The position numbers were made by a program, and so were the translations under genes. DNA of 64,000 nucleotides, taken from the NCBI RefSeq assembly GCF_014197435.1, contig NZ_JACIFP010000001.1, positions 2,356,001 through 2,420,000 on the forward strand, read 5' to 3'. Positions 25,238 through 43,245 of this stretch are shown here, in pieces. How positions within the stretch are numbered: position 1 is the first letter of the stretch; each line of letters begins with the position of its first letter. Source of the DNA: Gordonia humi. Lineage in GTDB: Bacteria; Actinomycetota; Actinomycetes; Mycobacteriales; Mycobacteriaceae. A model generated the notes under the pieces. The model searched no databases. It worked only from the letters and a program-made list of their open reading frames with translations, and was not told the DNA's origin.

Positions 25238-25268
25238 CATCTTCCGAGCGTCCGCGCGATGGCAGTCA

Positions 25269-25284
25269 TCGAACGTACGTTCTA
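25269..25284 (+). promoter_or_regulatory. LexA (SOS) box of dnaE2
   Basis: TCGAACGTACGTTCTA matches the SOS operator TCGAAC-N4-GTTCGA at 11 of 12 defined bases. It ends 10 bases before the dnaE2 GTG. A start codon at 25259 would put the operator inside the gene, so the downstream GTG is preferred. Confidence 0.88.
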
Positions 25285-25294
25285 TACTGTCCTG

Positions 25295-28200
25295 GTGGGT
25301 TGGAGTAATGGTCCGCCGACCTGGTCGGAGATGGAGAGAGTGCTGTCGGGGCGGTCCCCCGGGGCCAATGACCGAGGCGGCGATACGTTCCCGCCCACGG
25401 CCGACGGCAGGGTGCCCGGCGACGGGGGCGACTCGCCCGCGTGGTCGCGCAGACGGGGCGAGTACGTGGCCGCCGACATCGCGCACGGCCGGTCGACCGT
25501 GCCGTACGCCGAACTGCACGCGCACAGCGCCTACAGCTTCCTCGACGGTGCATCGATGCCGGAGGCCATGGTCGAGGAGGCGCAGCGACTGGGTCTGACA
25601 GCACTCGCGCTGACCGATCACGACGGCTTCTACGGTGTCGTGCGTTTCGCTGAGGCGGCGCGAGAATTCGGCATGCCCACTGTGTTCGGGGCGGAGCTGT
25701 CACTGCAGCGCGATGCGGCCCGGGCCGGTGCCGTGGACCCGCCGGGCGATCACCTGCTGATTCTCGCGCGCGGCGCCGAAGGCTACCGGCGGCTCTCGCG
25801 CGTCATCGCCGACGCGCACATGAGCGGCGGCGAGAAGGGACTGCTTCGGTACGACGCCGATGCCATCACCGCGGCGGCCGTCGGCGGGCACTGGCAGGTC
25901 CTCACCGGCTGCCGCAAGGGGACGGTCCGACGAGGCCTGGCCCGCGCCGGACGGCACGGCGCTCGTGATGCGCTCGGCGACCTCGTCGAGCGGTTCGGGG
26001 CGGGCAACGTCGCTGTGGAACTGACCGCCACCGGCGTGTCCGACGACGACGAACGCAATGCGATCCTCGCCGACCTGGCCGCCGAGATGAGCCTGACGAC
26101 GGTCGCGACGACGGGCGCGCATTTCGCCGGACCGGCGAACCGCAGGCTGGCGACGGCGGTCGCAGCGGTACGCGCCCGCACCGACATGAACACCATCGAC
26201 GGCTGGCTCCCCGGCGTCGGCGGCGCCCACCTGCGCAGCGGCGACGAGATGGCACGACTGCTGTCCGCTCATCCCGACGCCGTCGAGCACGCTGTCGCCA
26301 TCGCCGCCGACTGCGCGTTCTCCTTGGCGCTGATCGCCCCGAATCTGCCGCCGTTCGAGGTCGGTGAGGGGCACACCGAGGCGACCTGGCTACGGCATCT
26401 CACCGAGGAGGGAGCGGTGCGCCGCTACGGTACGCGCGCCGAGCGGCCCGACGCGTATCGACAGATCGACCACGAACTCGCGATCATCGAGGCGCTGACC
26501 TTTCCCGGCTACTTCCTGGTGGTCCACGACATCGTCACGTTCTGCAAGACCCACGACATCCTGTGCCAGGGGCGGGGGAGTTCGGCCAACTCCGCGGTCT
26601 GTTTCGCGCTCGGCATCACCAACGTCGACCCGGTCGGCAACAAGCTGTTGTTCGAGCGATTCCTCTCCCCCGAGCGCGACGGTCCGCCGGACATCGACGT
26701 CGACATCGAATCGGACCGTCGCGAGGAGGTGATCCAGTACGTCTACCGCAAGCACGGCCGGAGTCACAGCGCGCAGGTCGCCAACGTCATCACTTATCGG
26801 GGACGGTCGGCGGTGCGGGACATGGCGCGCGCCCTCGGATACGCGCCGGGACAGCAGGACGCGTGGAGCAAGATCCCCGACTCCGCCCCCGACGACGTCC
26901 GTGACCTCGCATCCCAGATCTCCTCCATGCCGAGGCATCTCGGAATCCACTCGGGCGGCATGGTGATCTGTGACCGGCCGATCGCCGACGTCGTCCCCAC
27001 CGAATGGGCGCGGATGGAGAATCGCAGCGTCCTGCAATGGGACAAGGACGACTGCGCCGCCGTCGGTCTGGTGAAGTTCGACCTCCTCGGCCTGGGCATG
27101 CTGTCGGCGCTGCACTACGCGATCGACCTGGTGAGCGAGCACAAGGGGATCGACGTCGACCTCGCGCAGCTGGATCTGAGCGAGCAGGCCGTCTACGACA
27201 TGCTGTGCCGCGCCGACTCGATCGGCGTGTTCCAAGTGGAGTCGCGCGCGCAGATGGCGACGCTGCCTCGGTTGAAGCCGCGGAACTTCTACGACCTCGT
27301 CGTCGAAGTGGCGCTCATCCGTCCCGGCCCGATCCAGGGCGGTTCGGTGCACCCGTACATCCGGCGGCGCGACGAGAAGGAGGAGGTGACCTTCGATCAC
27401 GACTCGATGAGACCCAGTCTGGAACGCACCCTCGGCATCCCGCTGTTTCAGGAGCAGATGATGCAGGTGGCGGTCGACGTCGCCGGCTTCGATCCGGCCG
27501 AAGCCGACCAGTTGCGTCGCGCGATGGGCTCCAAGCGGTCGCCGGAGCGGATGGAGCGGCTGCGCAAACGCTTCTACGACGGGATGCGCCAGACGCACGG
27601 GATCGAGGGGGCGGTGGCCGACCGCATCTACGAGAAGATGGCGGCGTTCGCCAATTTCGGCTTCCCGGAGAGTCATTCGCAGAGTTTCGCGTCGCTCGTG
27701 TTCTATTCGTCGTGGTTCAAGCTGCACCATCCGGCGGTGTTCTGTGCGGCACTGCTGCGGGCGCAGCCGATGGGCTTCTACTCGCCGCAGAGTCTCGTCG
27801 CCGACGCCAGACGGCACGGAGTGCAGGTGCACCGGCCGGATGTGAACGCATCGCGCTCGTACGCGTGGTTGGAGAACGGCGGCCTCGACGTGCGGATCGG
27901 GCTGGCCGCGGTGAAGGGGCTCTCGGACGATGCGGCGCAGCGGATCGTCGACGCTCGGGAGTCGGGTCCGTTCACCTCGGTCGCCGACCTGTCGCGGCGG
28001 ACGGAGTTGACGTTGCCGCAGCTGGAGGCGCTGGCGACGGCGGGCGCCTTCGAATGCTTCGGGCTGGACCGGCGTACCGCGCTGTGGGAGGCGGGCGCGG
28101 CGGCCGGTCTGCGGGACGAGCAACTCGACGTCACATCGCCGCGGGCGGCGCCGATGCTGCCCGGCATGTCGGAGGTGGACCTGACCGCCGTGGATGCGAT

Positions 28201-28579
28201 CTCGACGGGCATCTCGCCGCGCGCGTATCCGACCGAGTATCTGCGACCGCGGCTGGCCGCGATGGGCGTGACCCCGGCCGACGGACTGCTCGCGGTGCCC
28301 GACGGGACGCGCGTGCTGGTCGGGGGAGCGGTGACACATCGGCAGCGGCCGGCGACGGCGTCCGGGGTGACCTTCGTGAACCTCGAAGACGAGACCGGCA
28401 TGGTGAACGTCGTCTGCTCGGTCGGCCTGTGGTCGCGGTACCGGACACTCGCACAGACTGCGTCCGCGTTGCTCATCCGCGGAAAGGTGCAGAATGCCGA
28501 GGGCGCGGTGACCGTCGTCGCCGACCGGCTGCAGAAGCTGGATCTGAAAGTGGGGACGCGGTCGCGGGACTGGTGCTGA
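25295..28579 (+). CDS. dnaE2: Error-prone DNA polymerase III alpha, DnaE2
   Basis: A 1094-residue C-family polymerase. The chosen GTG gives MGWSNGPPTWSEMERVL, the conserved opening of mycobacterial DnaE2. It has a PHP domain (HAHSAYSFLDGAS), the catalytic aspartates of the palm (PDIDVDIESDRREE) and tower and finger motifs (GRGSSANSAVCF, RPGPIQGG, GFPESHSQSFA). A C-terminal OB domain (VLVGGAVTHRQRP) follows and there is no clamp-binding tail. With ImuA' and ImuB it performs damage-induced mutagenesis; all three genes are within 8.4 kb and share LexA boxes. It ends 11 bases before the convergent citrate synthase gene. Confidence 0.97.
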   Translation: MGWSNGPPTWSEMERVLSGRSPGANDRGGDTFPPTADGRVPGDGGDSPAWSRRRGEYVAADIAHGRSTVPYAELHAHSAYSFLDGASMPEAMVEEAQRLGLTALALTDHDGFYGVVRFAEAAREFGMPTVFGAELSLQRDAARAGAVDPPGDHLLILARGAEGYRRLSRVIADAHMSGGEKGLLRYDADAITAAAVGGHWQVLTGCRKGTVRRGLARAGRHGARDALGDLVERFGAGNVAVELTATGVSDDDERNAILADLAAEMSLTTVATTGAHFAGPANRRLATAVAAVRARTDMNTIDGWLPGVGGAHLRSGDEMARLLSAHPDAVEHAVAIAADCAFSLALIAPNLPPFEVGEGHTEATWLRHLTEEGAVRRYGTRAERPDAYRQIDHELAIIEALTFPGYFLVVHDIVTFCKTHDILCQGRGSSANSAVCFALGITNVDPVGNKLLFERFLSPERDGPPDIDVDIESDRREEVIQYVYRKHGRSHSAQVANVITYRGRSAVRDMARALGYAPGQQDAWSKIPDSAPDDVRDLASQISSMPRHLGIHSGGMVICDRPIADVVPTEWARMENRSVLQWDKDDCAAVGLVKFDLLGLGMLSALHYAIDLVSEHKGIDVDLAQLDLSEQAVYDMLCRADSIGVFQVESRAQMATLPRLKPRNFYDLVVEVALIRPGPIQGGSVHPYIRRRDEKEEVTFDHDSMRPSLERTLGIPLFQEQMMQVAVDVAGFDPAEADQLRRAMGSKRSPERMERLRKRFYDGMRQTHGIEGAVADRIYEKMAAFANFGFPESHSQSFASLVFYSSWFKLHHPAVFCAALLRAQPMGFYSPQSLVADARRHGVQVHRPDVNASRSYAWLENGGLDVRIGLAAVKGLSDDAAQRIVDARESGPFTSVADLSRRTELTLPQLEALATAGAFECFGLDRRTALWEAGAAAGLRDEQLDVTSPRAAPMLPGMSEVDLTAVDAISTGISPRAYPTEYLRPRLAAMGVTPADGLLAVPDGTRVLVGGAVTHRQRPATASGVTFVNLEDETGMVNVVCSVGLWSRYRTLAQTASALLIRGKVQNAEGAVTVVADRLQKLDLKVGTRSRDWC

Positions 28580-28590
28580 AGTCGCGTGAT

Positions 28591-29715
28591 CTACTCCGCG
28601 CGCACCGGCTCCGGTCCCACGTAGCGGGCCACCGGCCGGATGATCTTGGCCTCGGCGACCTGCTCGAGGATGTTCGCGGTCCAGCCGACGACGCGGGCGA
28701 CGCCGAAGGTCGGGGTGAACATGTCCACGGGCAGGCCGACCTCGTGCATCAGCACCCCCGCGTAGAACTCGACATTCGCGTACAGACGGCGACCCGGCTT
28801 CAACTCGTTGATCGCGGCCTCGATCTCGGCTTCGACGGCCATCGCCTGCCGCACCAGATCGGAGTCGTAGCGCTGCCGTACAACCGATTTCAGCAGTTCC
28901 GCGCGGGGGTCGCGGGTCCGGTAGACGGCGTGGCCGAAGCCCATGACGATCTCGCCTCTCTCGATGCGTCCGCGCACCCAGTCGCGCGTGTTCGCCGGAT
29001 CGCCGATCTCGTCCAATGCGGCCAGCGCTCGACTCGGTGCGCCACCGTGCCGCGGGCCGAGGAACGCGCCGAGCGCGCCCAACACCGACGACGTCATATC
29101 CGATCCGGTGGAGGCGACGACGCGACCGGCGAACGTCGACGCGTTGAACCCGTGATCGATCGTGGTGATCAGATACGTGCGCAGTGAGTCGGCGGCCTCG
29201 GCGTCCGACGAACCGGTGGCCATTCGCAGATAGTCGGAGACGTGGTCGGCCTCCGGATCGGGGTCGAGGACATCGAGTCCCTGCGAGATACGATGTGCCG
29301 CAGCGAGAATGGTCGGTACGACCGCTCCGGTGCGCAGTGCTGCGTCGACCAGTTCGGGGCGGTCCATGTCGAACGTCGGTCGGTCGGCGACGCCCAGCGC
29401 CGCCAGTGCCACGCGCAGCGCGGCGAGCGGTTCGACGCCCGGGCCCGCCACTCGACGGAGCAGCTCGACGGTCTCGTCGTCGATGACGCGGAGTGCGCCG
29501 ATCCGTCGCACGAACGCCGCCGACTGCTCCGGAGAGGGAAGCGTCCCGAACACCATCAGATGCCAGACGTCTTCGAACGTCGCCGTCCGAGCGAGCTGCG
29601 TCGCGTCGTACTGCCGGTAATGGTAGAAACCCTCTTCGCCTCGCACATCACCGATCTCGGTGTCGGTGACGATGACGTTCTTGAGGCCGCGGGGAACGCT
29701 GATCGGTGTGCTCAT
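28591..29715 (-). CDS. citA: Citrate/2-methylcitrate synthase
   Basis: A 374-residue citrate-synthase-family enzyme from ATG at MSTPISVPRGLKNV; the longer open frame upstream runs antisense through the divergent gene and was rejected. Active-site histidines are in HGGAPSRALA and GFGHAVYRTRDPR. The third catalytic acid is Glu in RLYANVEFYAG, where classical enzymes have Asp; some actinobacterial paralogues share this. It condenses acetyl-CoA (or propionyl-CoA) with oxaloacetate. Palindromes in the 40-bp gap to the divergent HTH-citrate-synthase gene suggest joint control. Confidence 0.9.
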   Translation of the reverse strand: MSTPISVPRGLKNVIVTDTEIGDVRGEEGFYHYRQYDATQLARTATFEDVWHLMVFGTLPSPEQSAAFVRRIGALRVIDDETVELLRRVAGPGVEPLAALRVALAALGVADRPTFDMDRPELVDAALRTGAVVPTILAAAHRISQGLDVLDPDPEADHVSDYLRMATGSSDAEAADSLRTYLITTIDHGFNASTFAGRVVASTGSDMTSSVLGALGAFLGPRHGGAPSRALAALDEIGDPANTRDWVRGRIERGEIVMGFGHAVYRTRDPRAELLKSVVRQRYDSDLVRQAMAVEAEIEAAINELKPGRRLYANVEFYAGVLMHEVGLPVDMFTPTFGVARVVGWTANILEQVAEAKIIRPVARYVGPEPVRAE

Positions 29716-29734
29716 GACTCGATCATCATCGACA

Positions 29735-29766
29735 TTGATCAACATCGTCAATGTTGATTGAATCAA
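29735..29766. promoter_or_regulatory. Stacked palindromes between divergent citrate synthase genes
   Basis: Three overlapping symmetric elements made of TTGAT/ATCAA half-sites: TTGATCAA (29735-29742), ATCAACAT-N5-ATGTTGAT (29738-29758, perfect 8-bp arms) and TTGATT-G-AATCAA (29754-29766). The region is AT-rich against a GC-rich background and covers both presumed promoters. A natural ligand is the HTH domain of the adjacent citrate-synthase-like protein. Confidence 0.6.
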
Positions 29767-29769
29767 CGT

Positions 29770-30849
29770 GTGGACTCCTGGATCACCACGTCGGAGGCGG
29801 CGGCGCGACTCGGCGTCAAACGCGGCACGCTGTACTCGTACGTCAGTCGAGGGCTGCTGGAGTCGCGACGGCAGCCGGGGCAGGAGGAGTCGCTGTTCGA
29901 CCGCACGCAGATCGACTCTCTCGCCGCGGCCAAACACGACGGTCGCCGTGCGGGCGACCGTCTGCTCAAGTTCCGGGCGGTGTCGACGCGCGTGTCGTCG
30001 ATCAGCGACGACCGGCTCTACCTGCGAGGGCGCGATCTCTCCGACGTCTGCGACACCATGGACTTCGCGGCCGCCGCGCGGTTCGTCCTCGCCGTCGACG
30101 AACCACGGCGAGCGCCCGAGGTGGATCTGTCCGTCATCGCACGGGTCGACGTGGAGCGACGGATCCCCTTGACCGTCGCCTTGATCGCGGCCGGCGATCC
30201 GCTGCGCGCCGACCGCACGGACGCCGCGGCGAAGGCACTCGGACTGCTTCCCGTTCTGGCGCAGGCTGTTTCGGAGATCGATCTCGGACACCCGTGGATC
30301 GACCTCCTCGTGACGACATTGATCGACAACGGACTCGCCGCTTCCACGACCGCGGCGCGTGTCGCGGCCTCGGCTCGTGCCGGAATCTTCGACGCGGTGC
30401 TCGCGGGTTACGCCGCACTGTCGGGCCCGTTGCACGGTGGCGCGCCCGCCGCGGCGTACGAACTCGTCGACGCCGTGGTCGACGGCACTCCCGTCGATCG
30501 GGCCCTCGCCGACGCCGTGGTCGACGGCAGACTCCCCGGATTCGGACACGTCGTCTACGGTGGCCCGGATCCCCGTGCGACGATCGTCTTCGACCGGATT
30601 CGAGCCGATCGGCCGACCTCACCCGCATTGGCCGCCGCCGACCTGATCGTCGGCCGCGCGGGGAGGGCGGCCAACGTCGATCTGGCGAGCGCCGTCGTCG
30701 CCCGCGAGCTGGGTCTCGGGCCGCGCGCCGGCGAGGTCCTGTTCCAATACGGCAGGACGGTCGGCATGGCCGCGCACGTGGTCGAGGAGTACGGCGAGGC
30801 GCCGCTGCGCTGGCGCGGCAGCGACACCGGGCACGACCGTACGAGATGA
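29770..30849 (+). CDS. Citrate-synthase-like protein with N-terminal helix-turn-helix
   Basis: A 359-residue protein from a GTG (VDSWITTSEAAARLGV). The first 60 residues are a MerR/excisionase-type helix-turn-helix (TSEAAARLGVKRGTLYSYVS) and the rest is citrate synthase fold, with HGGAP, GFGHVVYGGPDPR and NVD all retained at the catalytic places. The family is known in actinobacteria as DNA-binding citrate synthase homologues. The intact active-site residues mean it could sense oxaloacetate or acyl-CoA, or still catalyse. The stacked palindromes overlap its start and are the likely operator, so autoregulation and control of the divergent synthase are plausible. Confidence 0.85.
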   Translation: MDSWITTSEAAARLGVKRGTLYSYVSRGLLESRRQPGQEESLFDRTQIDSLAAAKHDGRRAGDRLLKFRAVSTRVSSISDDRLYLRGRDLSDVCDTMDFAAAARFVLAVDEPRRAPEVDLSVIARVDVERRIPLTVALIAAGDPLRADRTDAAAKALGLLPVLAQAVSEIDLGHPWIDLLVTTLIDNGLAASTTAARVAASARAGIFDAVLAGYAALSGPLHGGAPAAAYELVDAVVDGTPVDRALADAVVDGRLPGFGHVVYGGPDPRATIVFDRIRADRPTSPALAAADLIVGRAGRAANVDLASAVVARELGLGPRAGEVLFQYGRTVGMAAHVVEEYGEAPLRWRGSDTGHDRTR

Positions 30850-32673: not shown

Positions 32674-33132
32674 ATGTCCGCACGTATGACCAACCCCGTG
32701 TTCCTTCTGCCCGGCGTGTTCGAGGGGCTCACCGCGATCGGGAAGGCGATCGCCGACACCGGCCTCGGCCAGGATCTCTGCGAGATCGTGAACATGCGCG
32801 CCAGCCAACTCAACGGCTGCAGCACGTGTCTCGACGGGCACTGGCGACTCGCACGCCGACACGGCGTCAGCGACGAGAAGCTGTTCGCCGTCGGCGCCTG
32901 GCGCGACGCACCGTACTTCTCCGCCGCCGAGCGCATCGCGCTGGAGATGACCGAGGAGCTCACCCACCTGTCGATCAAGCCCGCGGCCGTCTCGGACGAC
33001 CTGTGGGATCGTGCGGCCGACGAGTTCGACGAGGCCCAGCTCGCGGCCCTCGTCGTCGCCATCGCGAACATCAACCTGTACAACCGGGTCAACCACGCCA
33101 CTCGTCAGGAGGGCGGCTCATGGAAGCCGTGA
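32674..33132 (+). CDS. Carboxymuconolactone-decarboxylase/AhpD-like protein
   Basis: A 152-residue all-helical protein with the AhpD-type redox pair in NGCSTCLDGH and the following conserved histidine. Such proteins act as alkylhydroperoxidase-like reductases or decarboxylases and are the usual targets of ECF41 sigma factors. A GAGGAGA ribosome site lies 8 bases upstream of the ATG. The SigJ-type promoter upstream suggests that it is induced by the divergent sigma factor. Confidence 0.88.
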   Translation: MSARMTNPVFLLPGVFEGLTAIGKAIADTGLGQDLCEIVNMRASQLNGCSTCLDGHWRLARRHGVSDEKLFAVGAWRDAPYFSAAERIALEMTEELTHLSIKPAAVSDDLWDRAADEFDEAQLAALVVAIANINLYNRVNHATRQEGGSWKP

Positions 33133-33180
33133 CGAGCGTCGTGGCCGGCGGTTGAGCAACTCGTGACAAGATGACCCGGA

Positions 33181-33332
33181 GAGCAGGCGGCGCGAGAGGG
33201 ATCGATGATCCGTCTCAGGGGCATCCCCTGGGTTCATGCACGGCACGGCTTCGCGTCGCGCGCAGACGGGCACACTCCGTGTACGGCGCTGCGCGCCGAG
33301 AACGACATGTTCTGGTCGCGCCGCCTGCGCTC
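33181..33332 (+). ncRNA. Candidate retron msr-msd non-coding RNA
   Basis: A 152-nt region just upstream of the reverse transcriptase, framed by a long inverted repeat of the a1/a2 type. GAGC plus AGGCGGCGCGA (33181-33195) pairs with TCGCGCCGCCT plus GCTC (33316-33332), 15 pairs with a 2-nt bulge. Inside are perfect small hairpins: GGATC-GAT-GATCC (33199-33211), CAGGGG-CAT-CCCCTG (33216-33230) and CGGCGC-TGC-GCGCCG (33284-33298), plus a TGCACGG/CCGTGTA pairing that could close an msd loop. The layout a1, two short stem-loops, longer stem, a2, reverse transcriptase is that of a retron. The branch guanosine was not identified. Confidence 0.65.
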
Positions 33333-33350
33333 GTCGACGAGGGGAGCGCG

Positions 33351-34652
33351 ATGACGGGGCAGGGGCTCGAGCCGCCGCAGCGCTTCACCGGACACGATGC
33401 GAACGCGATGGGATTCGCGGTGTCCCGCCGCATGATGCGGCTCCGACCCGCCGAGAGGGCCGACGCCTGGACGTGGCTCACCCTGCAGGAGATGTTCGCC
33501 GACACGGTGTGGCCCGACGACGCGGACGAGATCGCCCAAGCGGTGCTCGCCGTGTATCCGGAGCCGCCGTCGCGCATCCAGGAGGCGTTGACGGCTGTCA
33601 TCGTCGCGATGCCCGGGCGGCGCGAACCCTTCGCCGCCGACCCCGGGAGCTCGTCGCCGGTGTTCGACGTCCGGCAGATCGCCGATGTCGAGGAGCTCGC
33701 GGCCTGGCAGAATCTGTCGATGCCCGAACTGGACTGGTTCGCCGCCCGCGGCCGTGGGTCCCGCCGGGCGCCGACGCGACTGCGGCACTACCGGGTCTGG
33801 CAGATCCCGAAGCGGCACGGCGGTCTCCGCATCATCGAGGCGCCGAAGGAACGGCTCGCCACCATTCAACGACGCATCCTCGACGACGTCCTCGCGCATG
33901 TCCCGCCCCATCCGGCGGCCCACGGTTTCGTCCGCGGGCGCTCGGTCACGTCGTTCGCGGGTCCGCACGCGCTGCACGACGTCGTGCTCCGCATCGATCT
34001 GCGCCACTGTTTCGAACATGTCACGTATCCGCGAGTCAAGGCGGTGTTCACGGCGATCGGGTACCAGCCGGGCGTCGCCGCGTACCTGACGGCGCTGTGC
34101 ACGACGACGATCGCGGTCGACGACCAGCGACTCACCGACTCTCTCCACGCGGCACTGCTCCGGGAACGGCACCTGCCCCAGGGGGCGCCGACGTCGCCTG
34201 CGCTGCTCAACCTGGTGTTGCGACGCACGGACATCCGCATCGCGGGTTTCGCCGCCGCGAACAGGCTCACGTACACGCGGTACGGCGACGATCTCGCGCT
34301 GTCCGGCGACGACGTCGACGTGGGGCGGGTGCTCTGGGCGGTGTCGTCGATCATCCGCGACGAGGGCTTCACCGTGCATCCCGACAAGGTCCGTGTGATG
34401 GGCGAGCATCAACGTCAACAGTTGACCGGGCTCGTCGTGAACGCCGGACCGCGCGCCGCCCGGGCCGACTACGATGCACTGAAAGCGCTGCTGCACAATG
34501 CGATCCGCGACGGAGGTCAGTCGCAGAACCGCGCAGGCCGAGACGACTTCCGGGCGTATGTGTACGGGCGTATCGGCTGGGTGTCGACCGGATCGCAGGC
34601 CAGGCGTCGCAAACTCACCGAGATGGCGGCACGCGTCGACTGGGAGCGTTAG
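33351..34652 (+). CDS. Retron-type reverse transcriptase with N-terminal extension
   Basis: A 433-residue RT from the ATG of MTGQGLEPPQ, with GAGGGGAG as ribosome site; a start 60 codons upstream would run through the candidate RNA. Residues 1-145 are an extension like that of myxobacterial retron RTs (Mx162 class). The RT core has IPKRHGGLRIIEAPK, HPAAHGFVRGRS, motif A RIDLRHCF, motif B LPQGAPTSPALLN, motif C YGDD (residues 311-314) and the retron-like LTGLVVN. Motif C normally reads YADD. It would copy part of the upstream RNA into msDNA. No effector gene is adjacent: upstream is the AhpD-like gene and downstream trmL is convergent, overlapping by four bases. Confidence 0.9.
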   Translation: MTGQGLEPPQRFTGHDANAMGFAVSRRMMRLRPAERADAWTWLTLQEMFADTVWPDDADEIAQAVLAVYPEPPSRIQEALTAVIVAMPGRREPFAADPGSSSPVFDVRQIADVEELAAWQNLSMPELDWFAARGRGSRRAPTRLRHYRVWQIPKRHGGLRIIEAPKERLATIQRRILDDVLAHVPPHPAAHGFVRGRSVTSFAGPHALHDVVLRIDLRHCFEHVTYPRVKAVFTAIGYQPGVAAYLTALCTTTIAVDDQRLTDSLHAALLRERHLPQGAPTSPALLNLVLRRTDIRIAGFAAANRLTYTRYGDDLALSGDDVDVGRVLWAVSSIIRDEGFTVHPDKVRVMGEHQRQQLTGLVVNAGPRAARADYDALKALLHNAIRDGGQSQNRAGRDDFRAYVYGRIGWVSTGSQARRRKLTEMAARVDWER

Positions 34653-43085: not shown

Positions 43086-43129
43086 GGGCGCACTGCCCGC
43101 TTGTTCCTTGGGTCCGACCTTCGGACCCG
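43086..43129 (-). promoter_or_regulatory. Expression-platform hairpins of the metY riboswitch
   Basis: Downstream of the aptamer on the minus strand are GGGTCCGA-AGG-TCGGACCC (43129-43111), whose 5' arm includes the aptamer's final GGGTC, and CGGGC-AGTGC-GCCCG (43100-43086), about 30 bases before the metY start. They are positioned to transmit SAM binding to transcription or translation; the mechanism is not shown by sequence alone. Confidence 0.5.
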
Positions 43130-43245
43130 CGCTTGCGGCGACGAAGCTTCGCCCCGTTGCCGCCAGGTCATCACCCGGAGCACCCCACCGCGGTTGGAGG
43201 GTTGCCGGTCAGCAAGCCGGGGCTCACTGCTGACGCTCATGACCT
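43124..43245 (-). ncRNA. SAM-IV riboswitch controlling metY-metX
   Basis: About 122 nt in the metY leader match the SAM-IV aptamer: a 5' P1 strand GGUCAUGAGC, the core CCCCGGCUUGCUG, GGCAACCCUCCAACCGCGGU, GGGGUGCUCCGGGUGAUGACC (core shown in parts), a variable extra stem, and a 3' GCAAGCGCGG that forms the pseudoknot with CCGCG. SAM-IV is known only from actinobacteria, upstream of methionine genes. High SAM is expected to switch off metY and metX. Confidence 0.93.

Follow-up and report, generated by a model that had tools for sequence, protein, structure and literature searches.

The DNA studied here, referred to as the window, is a 64,000-nucleotide stretch of Gordonia humi (assembly GCF_014197435.1, contig NZ_JACIFP010000001.1, positions 2,356,001 to 2,420,000 of the forward strand). 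On its + strand it contains, from 5' to 3', a repeat arm (a1), approximately 120 nucleotides of structured RNA, a second repeat arm (a2), a gap of 18 nucleotides, and a reverse transcriptase (RT) gene. The RT gene spans 33351-34652, begins with the ATG at 33351, and encodes 433 amino acids. The open reading frame (ORF) extends from 33171 to 34652, and the ATG at 33351 is a good internal start with the ribosome site AGGGGAG in front of it. The protein is composed of an N-terminal extension (residues 1-105; 33351-33665), predicted to form helices and a linker, and of the retron RT core with the C-terminal part (33666-34652). The codon GC3 of the RT is 0.866, similar to that of the neighboring genes (0.815-0.919).

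Two further features of the window lie outside this arrangement. Two adjacent citrate-synthase-like genes are found on opposite strands at 28591-30849, the second of which (29758-30849) encodes an N-terminal HTH_17/MerR-like domain and part of the citrate synthase domain. A SAM-IV riboswitch (109.2 bits) is located at 43124-43244 on the - strand and is also present in two related loci (L062 and L064).

The a1 arm (33179-33195) pairs with the a2 arm (33316-33332) through 16 Watson-Crick pairs, 13 of them contiguous, with one mismatch. The first-pass annotation had given this repeat 15 base pairs with 11 contiguous; the repeat itself is there, but it is longer than described. No other perfect 13-bp inverted repeat in the whole window has its arms 90-200 nucleotides apart. 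At the same spacing there are five repeats of 12 bp and 13 of 11 bp, counts that include sub-words of a1/a2. Between the arms, the predicted fold contains msr stem-loop 1 directly after a1 (33196-33214), msr stem-loop 2 (33215-33231, CAGGGG NNN CCCCTG), which is the most conserved element, and the msd (33232-33315), the predicted msDNA template, with a hairpin at 33258-33296 and exact ends that are estimated. These are the structures that had been described as two short stem-loops and a larger pairing. The gap of 18 bases between a2 and an RT with retron-like motifs was likewise described correctly, with YGDD and LTG present in the protein.

The RNA at 33178-33335 folds at −87.8 kcal/mol with a z of −3.66, and 0 of 200 shuffles are as good. 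A wider cut (33150-33360) has a z of only −1.40, with 17 of 200 shuffles as good. The folding of one sequence alone could therefore not decide the matter and was not relied on.

A promoter-like extended −10 element, TGACAAGAT, matches the consensus at 33164-33172 on the + strand and would set the transcript start near a1. The pattern TGNYANNNT occurs just upstream of the RNA in 40 of 59 loci, compared with 1.0% of stretches taken at random from these sequences. Many of the remaining 19 loci have TANNNT minus the TG, as judged by eye. The stretch after a1 is conserved and GAGAG-like. The excerpt of PMC6868368 lists TAGC, CAGA, CAGC, GAGC, and ACGC as contexts of the priming guanosine, and the GAGAG-like stretch is absent from that list.

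An RNA model was trained on 20 upstream sequences, that of the window among them. It matches directly upstream of the RT in all 59 sources, with scores of 82-177 bits. The RNA of the window scores 111.6 bits, though as part of the training set. The scan of the 59 sources gave 17 extra matches, which are at or below 22.5 bits and lie on the opposite strand of the same RNAs. Within the training set, covariation affects 15 of 34 pairs (shuffled mean 8.2), a count equaled by 0 of 500 shuffles.

The held-out set consists of the 39 sources outside training, 36 of which were aligned with MAFFT. L024 was left out because its RT is broken, and L036 and L040 because they are near copies of L034. RNAalifold, run afresh on the 36 sequences, predicted the inner part of a1/a2, both msr hairpins, and an msd hairpin in two parts. 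Of 24 pairs, 14 have changes on both sides, compared with a mean of 5.6 after shuffling, and 0 of 500 shuffles reach that count. Paired cells make up 98.1% of the total, and sliding the partners by 1-3 columns lowers this value to 32-53%. Stem-loop 1 has compensatory change in two of three pairs at the held-out loci. Stem-loop 2 is paired in 100% of cells in the 36 sequences, with both-sided change at four of eight pairs; among 40 loci, its motif has a tight form in 29, a looser form in seven, and is absent from four. The helices recovered in the held-out covariation analysis also include two in the msd region.

Just the inner three pairs of a1/a2 were recovered by RNAalifold because the outer arms are misaligned in the MAFFT alignment of the held-out loci, and an arm-swap test was therefore used. 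Across the 59 loci, which are akin and thus do not count as 59 independent events, an average of 14.1 of 18 positions pair with the own a2 and 10.4 with a foreign a2, a result reached in 0 of 1000 permutations. The poorest a1/a2 repeats in a simple count are those of L083 (8 of 18) and L071 (9 of 18), both held-out. The first-pass annotation had made its reading depend on a covarying a1/a2 upstream of related RTs, and such covariation was found by both approaches, the pair counts and the swap. At the gathering score, Rfam has nothing over this RNA in the window or in eight related loci, and its only matches within 33100-33400 have E values of 6 and 7.9.

The RT contains RVT_1 and no other Pfam domain. 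Retron profile models score it at 146-159 bits, compared with 40 bits for group II and 27 bits for Drt2. The unclassified PADLOC models RT_other (549.5 bits) and RT_outgroup (514.1 bits) score far above RT_XIII (320.9 bits), the best typed model, and in this respect the window RT differs from typed retrons. The closest solved sequences are in line with retron RTs, and in the fold comparison of the RT model the 14 top rows are all retron RTs. A 21-row RT tree agrees with this placement, with weakly supported deep forks and one row (L100) that is a poor 69-residue piece. The excerpt of PMC4244168 gives region Y of retron RTs as VTG, with I/L variants known, and region X as NAxxH. The window RT has the LTG at region Y, and its region X reads FAGPH, which keeps the A and the H but not the N. 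YGDD or YADD is kept in 40 of 40 loci. Judged by profile scores, closest solved sequences, and predicted fold, the window RT belongs with the retron RTs. A comparison of the RT model with a viral fold library gave a list headed by distant polymerase-type matches. Phage records contain 37 matches to the RT, the best with 40% identity across half the protein.

The search for a partner effector used neighborhood clustering of 40 loci of 13.6-17.3 kb, with ORFs of at least 80 amino acids within 6.5 kb. The RT is the sole ORF family common to all 40 loci. Where the RT lies, clustering also gave two families (33 and 15 loci) that are opposite-strand readings of the same stretch, and the next commonest neighbor family is a polymerase, present in 12 of the 40. 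Home-made gene calling had the same outcome, with no shared effector. The upstream gene is co-directional in 28 of 40 loci and lies no more than 100 nucleotides away in 26. A Pfam scan of 20 neighbors, 19 upstream and one downstream, showed that the upstream genes are unrelated, with CorA, thiolase, luciferase-like monooxygenase, DNA polymerase I, nitronate monooxygenase, carboxylesterase, and regulators among them. PADLOC, applied to 11 neighbors in the window, found nothing except a 28.6-bit match to a helix-turn-helix region. No adjacent or fused effector was found among ORFs of at least 80 amino acids within 6.5 kb in the 40 loci; a partner of fewer than 80 amino acids, or one encoded elsewhere, would escape this search. 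On the RT being all that the 40 loci share, the unrelated upstream neighbors, and the near-empty PADLOC result, the earlier description of the retron as solitary is borne out within the reach of this search.

The RT is present in 22 of 59 Gordonia genomes, with one copy broken, and 37 genomes are without it. At an E value of 0.001, 23 Gordonia genomes match, among them G032, which carries a different RT (7e-7). At the same threshold across the family, matches are found in 99 of 301 genomes from 15 genera, with those of G068, G108, and G296 weak. After removal of these three, strong matches remain in 96 genomes and 13 of the 31 genera sampled.

The trmL gene lies directly downstream of the RT in 12 of 40 loci (six Gordonia, six Williamsia), and 11 of these also have a co-directional dnaE2 upstream. 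For the trmL locus without dnaE2 (L052), the sequence examined reaches 4.3 kb upstream of the RT. A twelfth dnaE2 match (L081) is approximately 4 kb off, on the other strand, and without trmL. The remaining 28 loci are elsewhere, beside unrelated genes. Of the 58 Gordonia trmL neighborhoods, 20 were examined; 19 have no RT at this site, and the examined sequence includes dnaE2 in 18 of the 19. In G018, a broken RT with two in-frame TGA codons lies between dnaE2 and trmL (L107, 4676-5245). The RNA beside this broken RT (L024) still scores 108.3 bits in the RNA model.

The twelve trmL-locus rows of the RT tree require two changes among labeled rows, compared with 5.9 when shuffled, and three once every other row is included. 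A clade (100/99) unites the six Gordonia trmL-locus rows, and copies at other sites, Gordonia included, nest among the Williamsia ones. This pattern fits an ancestral trmL site from which the retron would later have moved. In Tsukamurella-like loci (L074, L082, and L154), the retron is repeatedly downstream of DNA polymerase I; after dnaE2 this is a second tie to a DNA polymerase gene, and it may be chance. An empty-site comparison at the globin locus fixed no insertion ends, the flanks being too diverged. The first-pass annotation had regarded the retron as fixed rather than mobile. That view is correct for a single locus shared across genera (12 of 40 by trmL), but not for the patchy presence (22 of 59), the broken G018 copy, and the copies at other sites and on a plasmid.

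A phylum-wide profile search matches 46 of 296 genomes and also three of 14 control genomes. Only three matches exceed 77.4 bits, two within the family and one (G570) in another family. The upstream RNA of G570 scores 36.6 bits in the RNA model (E 6.1e-06). Plasmid records contain 156 RT matches, 32 of them from Burkholderia, and the best 120 matches of a protein search include relatives in many Burkholderia and Paraburkholderia species. The RTs of B. pyrrocinia and B. arboris are 44-45% identical to the window RT, group with it at 100/100 in the 21-row tree with its weak deep forks, and have an N-terminal extension that is collinear by eye. As in the window, their loci have a long a1/a2, here spanning 17 positions with no more than one mismatch, and an msr-like hairpin, which is short in B. 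pyrrocinia. They differ in belonging to another phylum and in an RNA sequence that has largely diverged, with RNA model scores of only 20.4 and 13.7 bits, so that the layout hints at kinship of the RNA.

One of the two Burkholderia loci, that of B. pyrrocinia, was annotated. The retron lies between an SDR oxidoreductase gene and a D-Ala-D-Ala carboxypeptidase gene. Located 2.4-6.5 kb upstream of the retron are an ATP-dependent endonuclease gene and, after it, a 3.8-kb gene without known function (L153, 1-4141). The pair is not recurrent in the 40 loci and is possibly a separate defense system. The Dietzia plasmid copy (L155, 2853-4298) is the next gene after merA (mercuric reductase). A TIR-domain gene lies 6.6 kb downstream of that retron and is not recurrent in the 40 loci either.

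Mestre and colleagues reportedly sorted retron defense systems into types I-XIII in 2020. The window family resembles the typed systems in RT family and fold and in the order a1-msr-msd-a2 upstream of the RT, and it differs in that no effector gene or recognizable fused effector was found. Myxobacterial Mx162-class retrons are not known to have a partner gene. In the excerpt of PMC6868368, the RTs of Mx162, Mx65, Sa163, and Ne144 are described as having an extended N-terminus and vertical inheritance, and by this description the window RT resembles them in its N-terminus. Mx162 differs in the msd, which is 162 nucleotides by the same excerpt and approximately 80 in the window, and in its host phylum. 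The usual description of a retron comprises an RT, an RNA, and a toxic effector (PMC12548924, excerpt), and the structure 7v9x presents Ec86 (Eco1) with its effector partner. Residue 4 of Ec86 aligns with residue 97 of the window RT model, and Ec86 therefore has no such N-terminal extension. A Rhodococcus ruber gene is labeled retron-type polymerase, and no more, in the excerpt of PMC6498646. The literature search found no description of the retrons reported here; the 2020 classification and an experimental census were outside its reach.

It is highly likely that the locus is a self-contained solitary retron, expected to synthesize msDNA. The RNA covariation, the retron-type scores of the RT, and its retron fold all agree with the original reading of an a1-msr-msd-a2 array followed by an RT. 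The comparable layout in Burkholderia and the −10-like element before the RNA are further points in its favor. Judged on sequence, fold, and covariation, the lineage appears to be a genuine retron lineage that is effector-free and untyped by PADLOC. The GAGAG context, the FAGPH motif, and the faint Burkholderia scores in the RNA model are counted against the retron explanation. The defense-like genes near the B. pyrrocinia and Dietzia plasmid copies are counted against the effector-free picture.

In the proposed mechanism, the promoter just before a1 would start the transcript. The RNA would form the a1/a2 stem, the two msr hairpins, and the msd hairpin, a structure shown by the covariation. 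As in other members of the retron family, the RT would bind the msr, prime at the conserved G beside a1, and copy the msd of approximately 80 nucleotides into msDNA. The helical N-terminal domain may stay in the complex as a docking or RNA-binding part. The most likely role, held with about as much confidence as doubt, is that of a putative sensor of phage or DNA damage that would work together with a host protein whose gene lies elsewhere.

A more tentative explanation is that the locus is a domesticated msDNA maker with a non-defense role, for example in the SOS response beside dnaE2. An equally tentative extension of it is that an old effector-free lineage, spanning Mycobacteriales and Burkholderia, was kept for a housekeeping use of msDNA, with an ancestral site in Gordonia and Williamsia behind an SOS-controlled dnaE2. 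The dnaE2-type polymerase matches the NCBIfam entry for error-prone DNA polymerase at 1516 bits, and its gene lies at 25259-28579 in the window. With at most one mismatch, a LexA-like SOS box is present near the dnaE2 start in 26 of 27 loci, the window included, compared with 12% of random stretches. The box in the window, near 25269, has one mismatch and lies just inside the called dnaE2 ORF, so the true dnaE2 start is probably further downstream. In five loci (L062, L063, L064, L067, and L086), the retron RNA begins 5-78 nucleotides past dnaE2. Together with the SOS-like box, this makes read-through upon DNA damage possible in these five. A domesticated role is also favored by the trmL and dnaE2 arrangement of 12 and 11 loci, by the polA neighborhood that recurs in Tsukamurella-like loci, and by an RT GC3 like that of the neighbors. 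However, 28 of 40 loci are elsewhere beside unrelated genes, five genes separate dnaE2 from the retron in the window, and 37 of 59 Gordonia genomes do without the RT. Moreover, from 1.5 kb upstream to the end of the RT, LexA-like boxes occur, at scattered places, in only four of the 40 loci (L054, L060, L069, and L084) and in none of the dnaE2 group.

It is unlikely that the N-terminal extension is itself the effector, which would make this a single-gene retron comparable to the TIR, Toprim, or protease fusions. The aligned family has the extension throughout, the full model shows it as confidently helical (block pLDDT mostly 80-96), and no other candidate is common to the neighborhoods. The first-pass annotation had allowed for an effector fused into 145 N-terminal residues. 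In 13 of 14 rows of the fold comparison, the superposition of retron RT structures on the model begins at residue 97-111, and in the remaining row at 145, so there is an extension but its length is approximately 105 residues. It evolves fast, with a mean pairwise identity of 0.255, compared with 0.592 for the polymerase (residues 106-366). W40 and P73 are the only positions at least 90% conserved in 57 proteins, so no catalytic set is visible, and the fused effector is not upheld. The extension has no match in Pfam, and PDB sequences reach E values of 0.32 and 1.2 at best. Modeled alone it has a pLDDT of 57.8, which is too poor for a fold search. The whole-model comparison barely covered residues below 101, so the missing fold match is no evidence of a new fold. 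The sequence features speak for a docking or RNA-binding part rather than an enzyme.

It is less probable still that the locus is a decaying or selfish relic that has no function at present. The patchy presence and the broken G018 copy with its two TGA codons would be expected of a relic, but compensatory changes in the RNA and a YxDD retained in 40 of 40 loci indicate long selection. There is very little likelihood that the locus is no retron but a group II intron or DRT-type RT beside a chance inverted repeat, since, although the RT fold is common to all of these and the deep forks of the small tree are weak, the retron models outscore those of group II and Drt2, retron RTs fill the first 14 fold-comparison rows, and the RNA covaries.

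The solitary retron described here represents a family found in many soil actinobacteria, with an RNA under clear selection and no adjacent effector found. If the housekeeping use of msDNA behind dnaE2 were true, the task of some retrons would lie in DNA damage or mutagenesis and not in defense. According to the excerpt of a preprint (PMC12262390), ten retrons have been ported into other bacteria, including two Actinomycetota species. The lineage adds GC-rich actinobacterial retron parts, and its hosts could be used to learn what msDNA does by itself or together with a distant partner.
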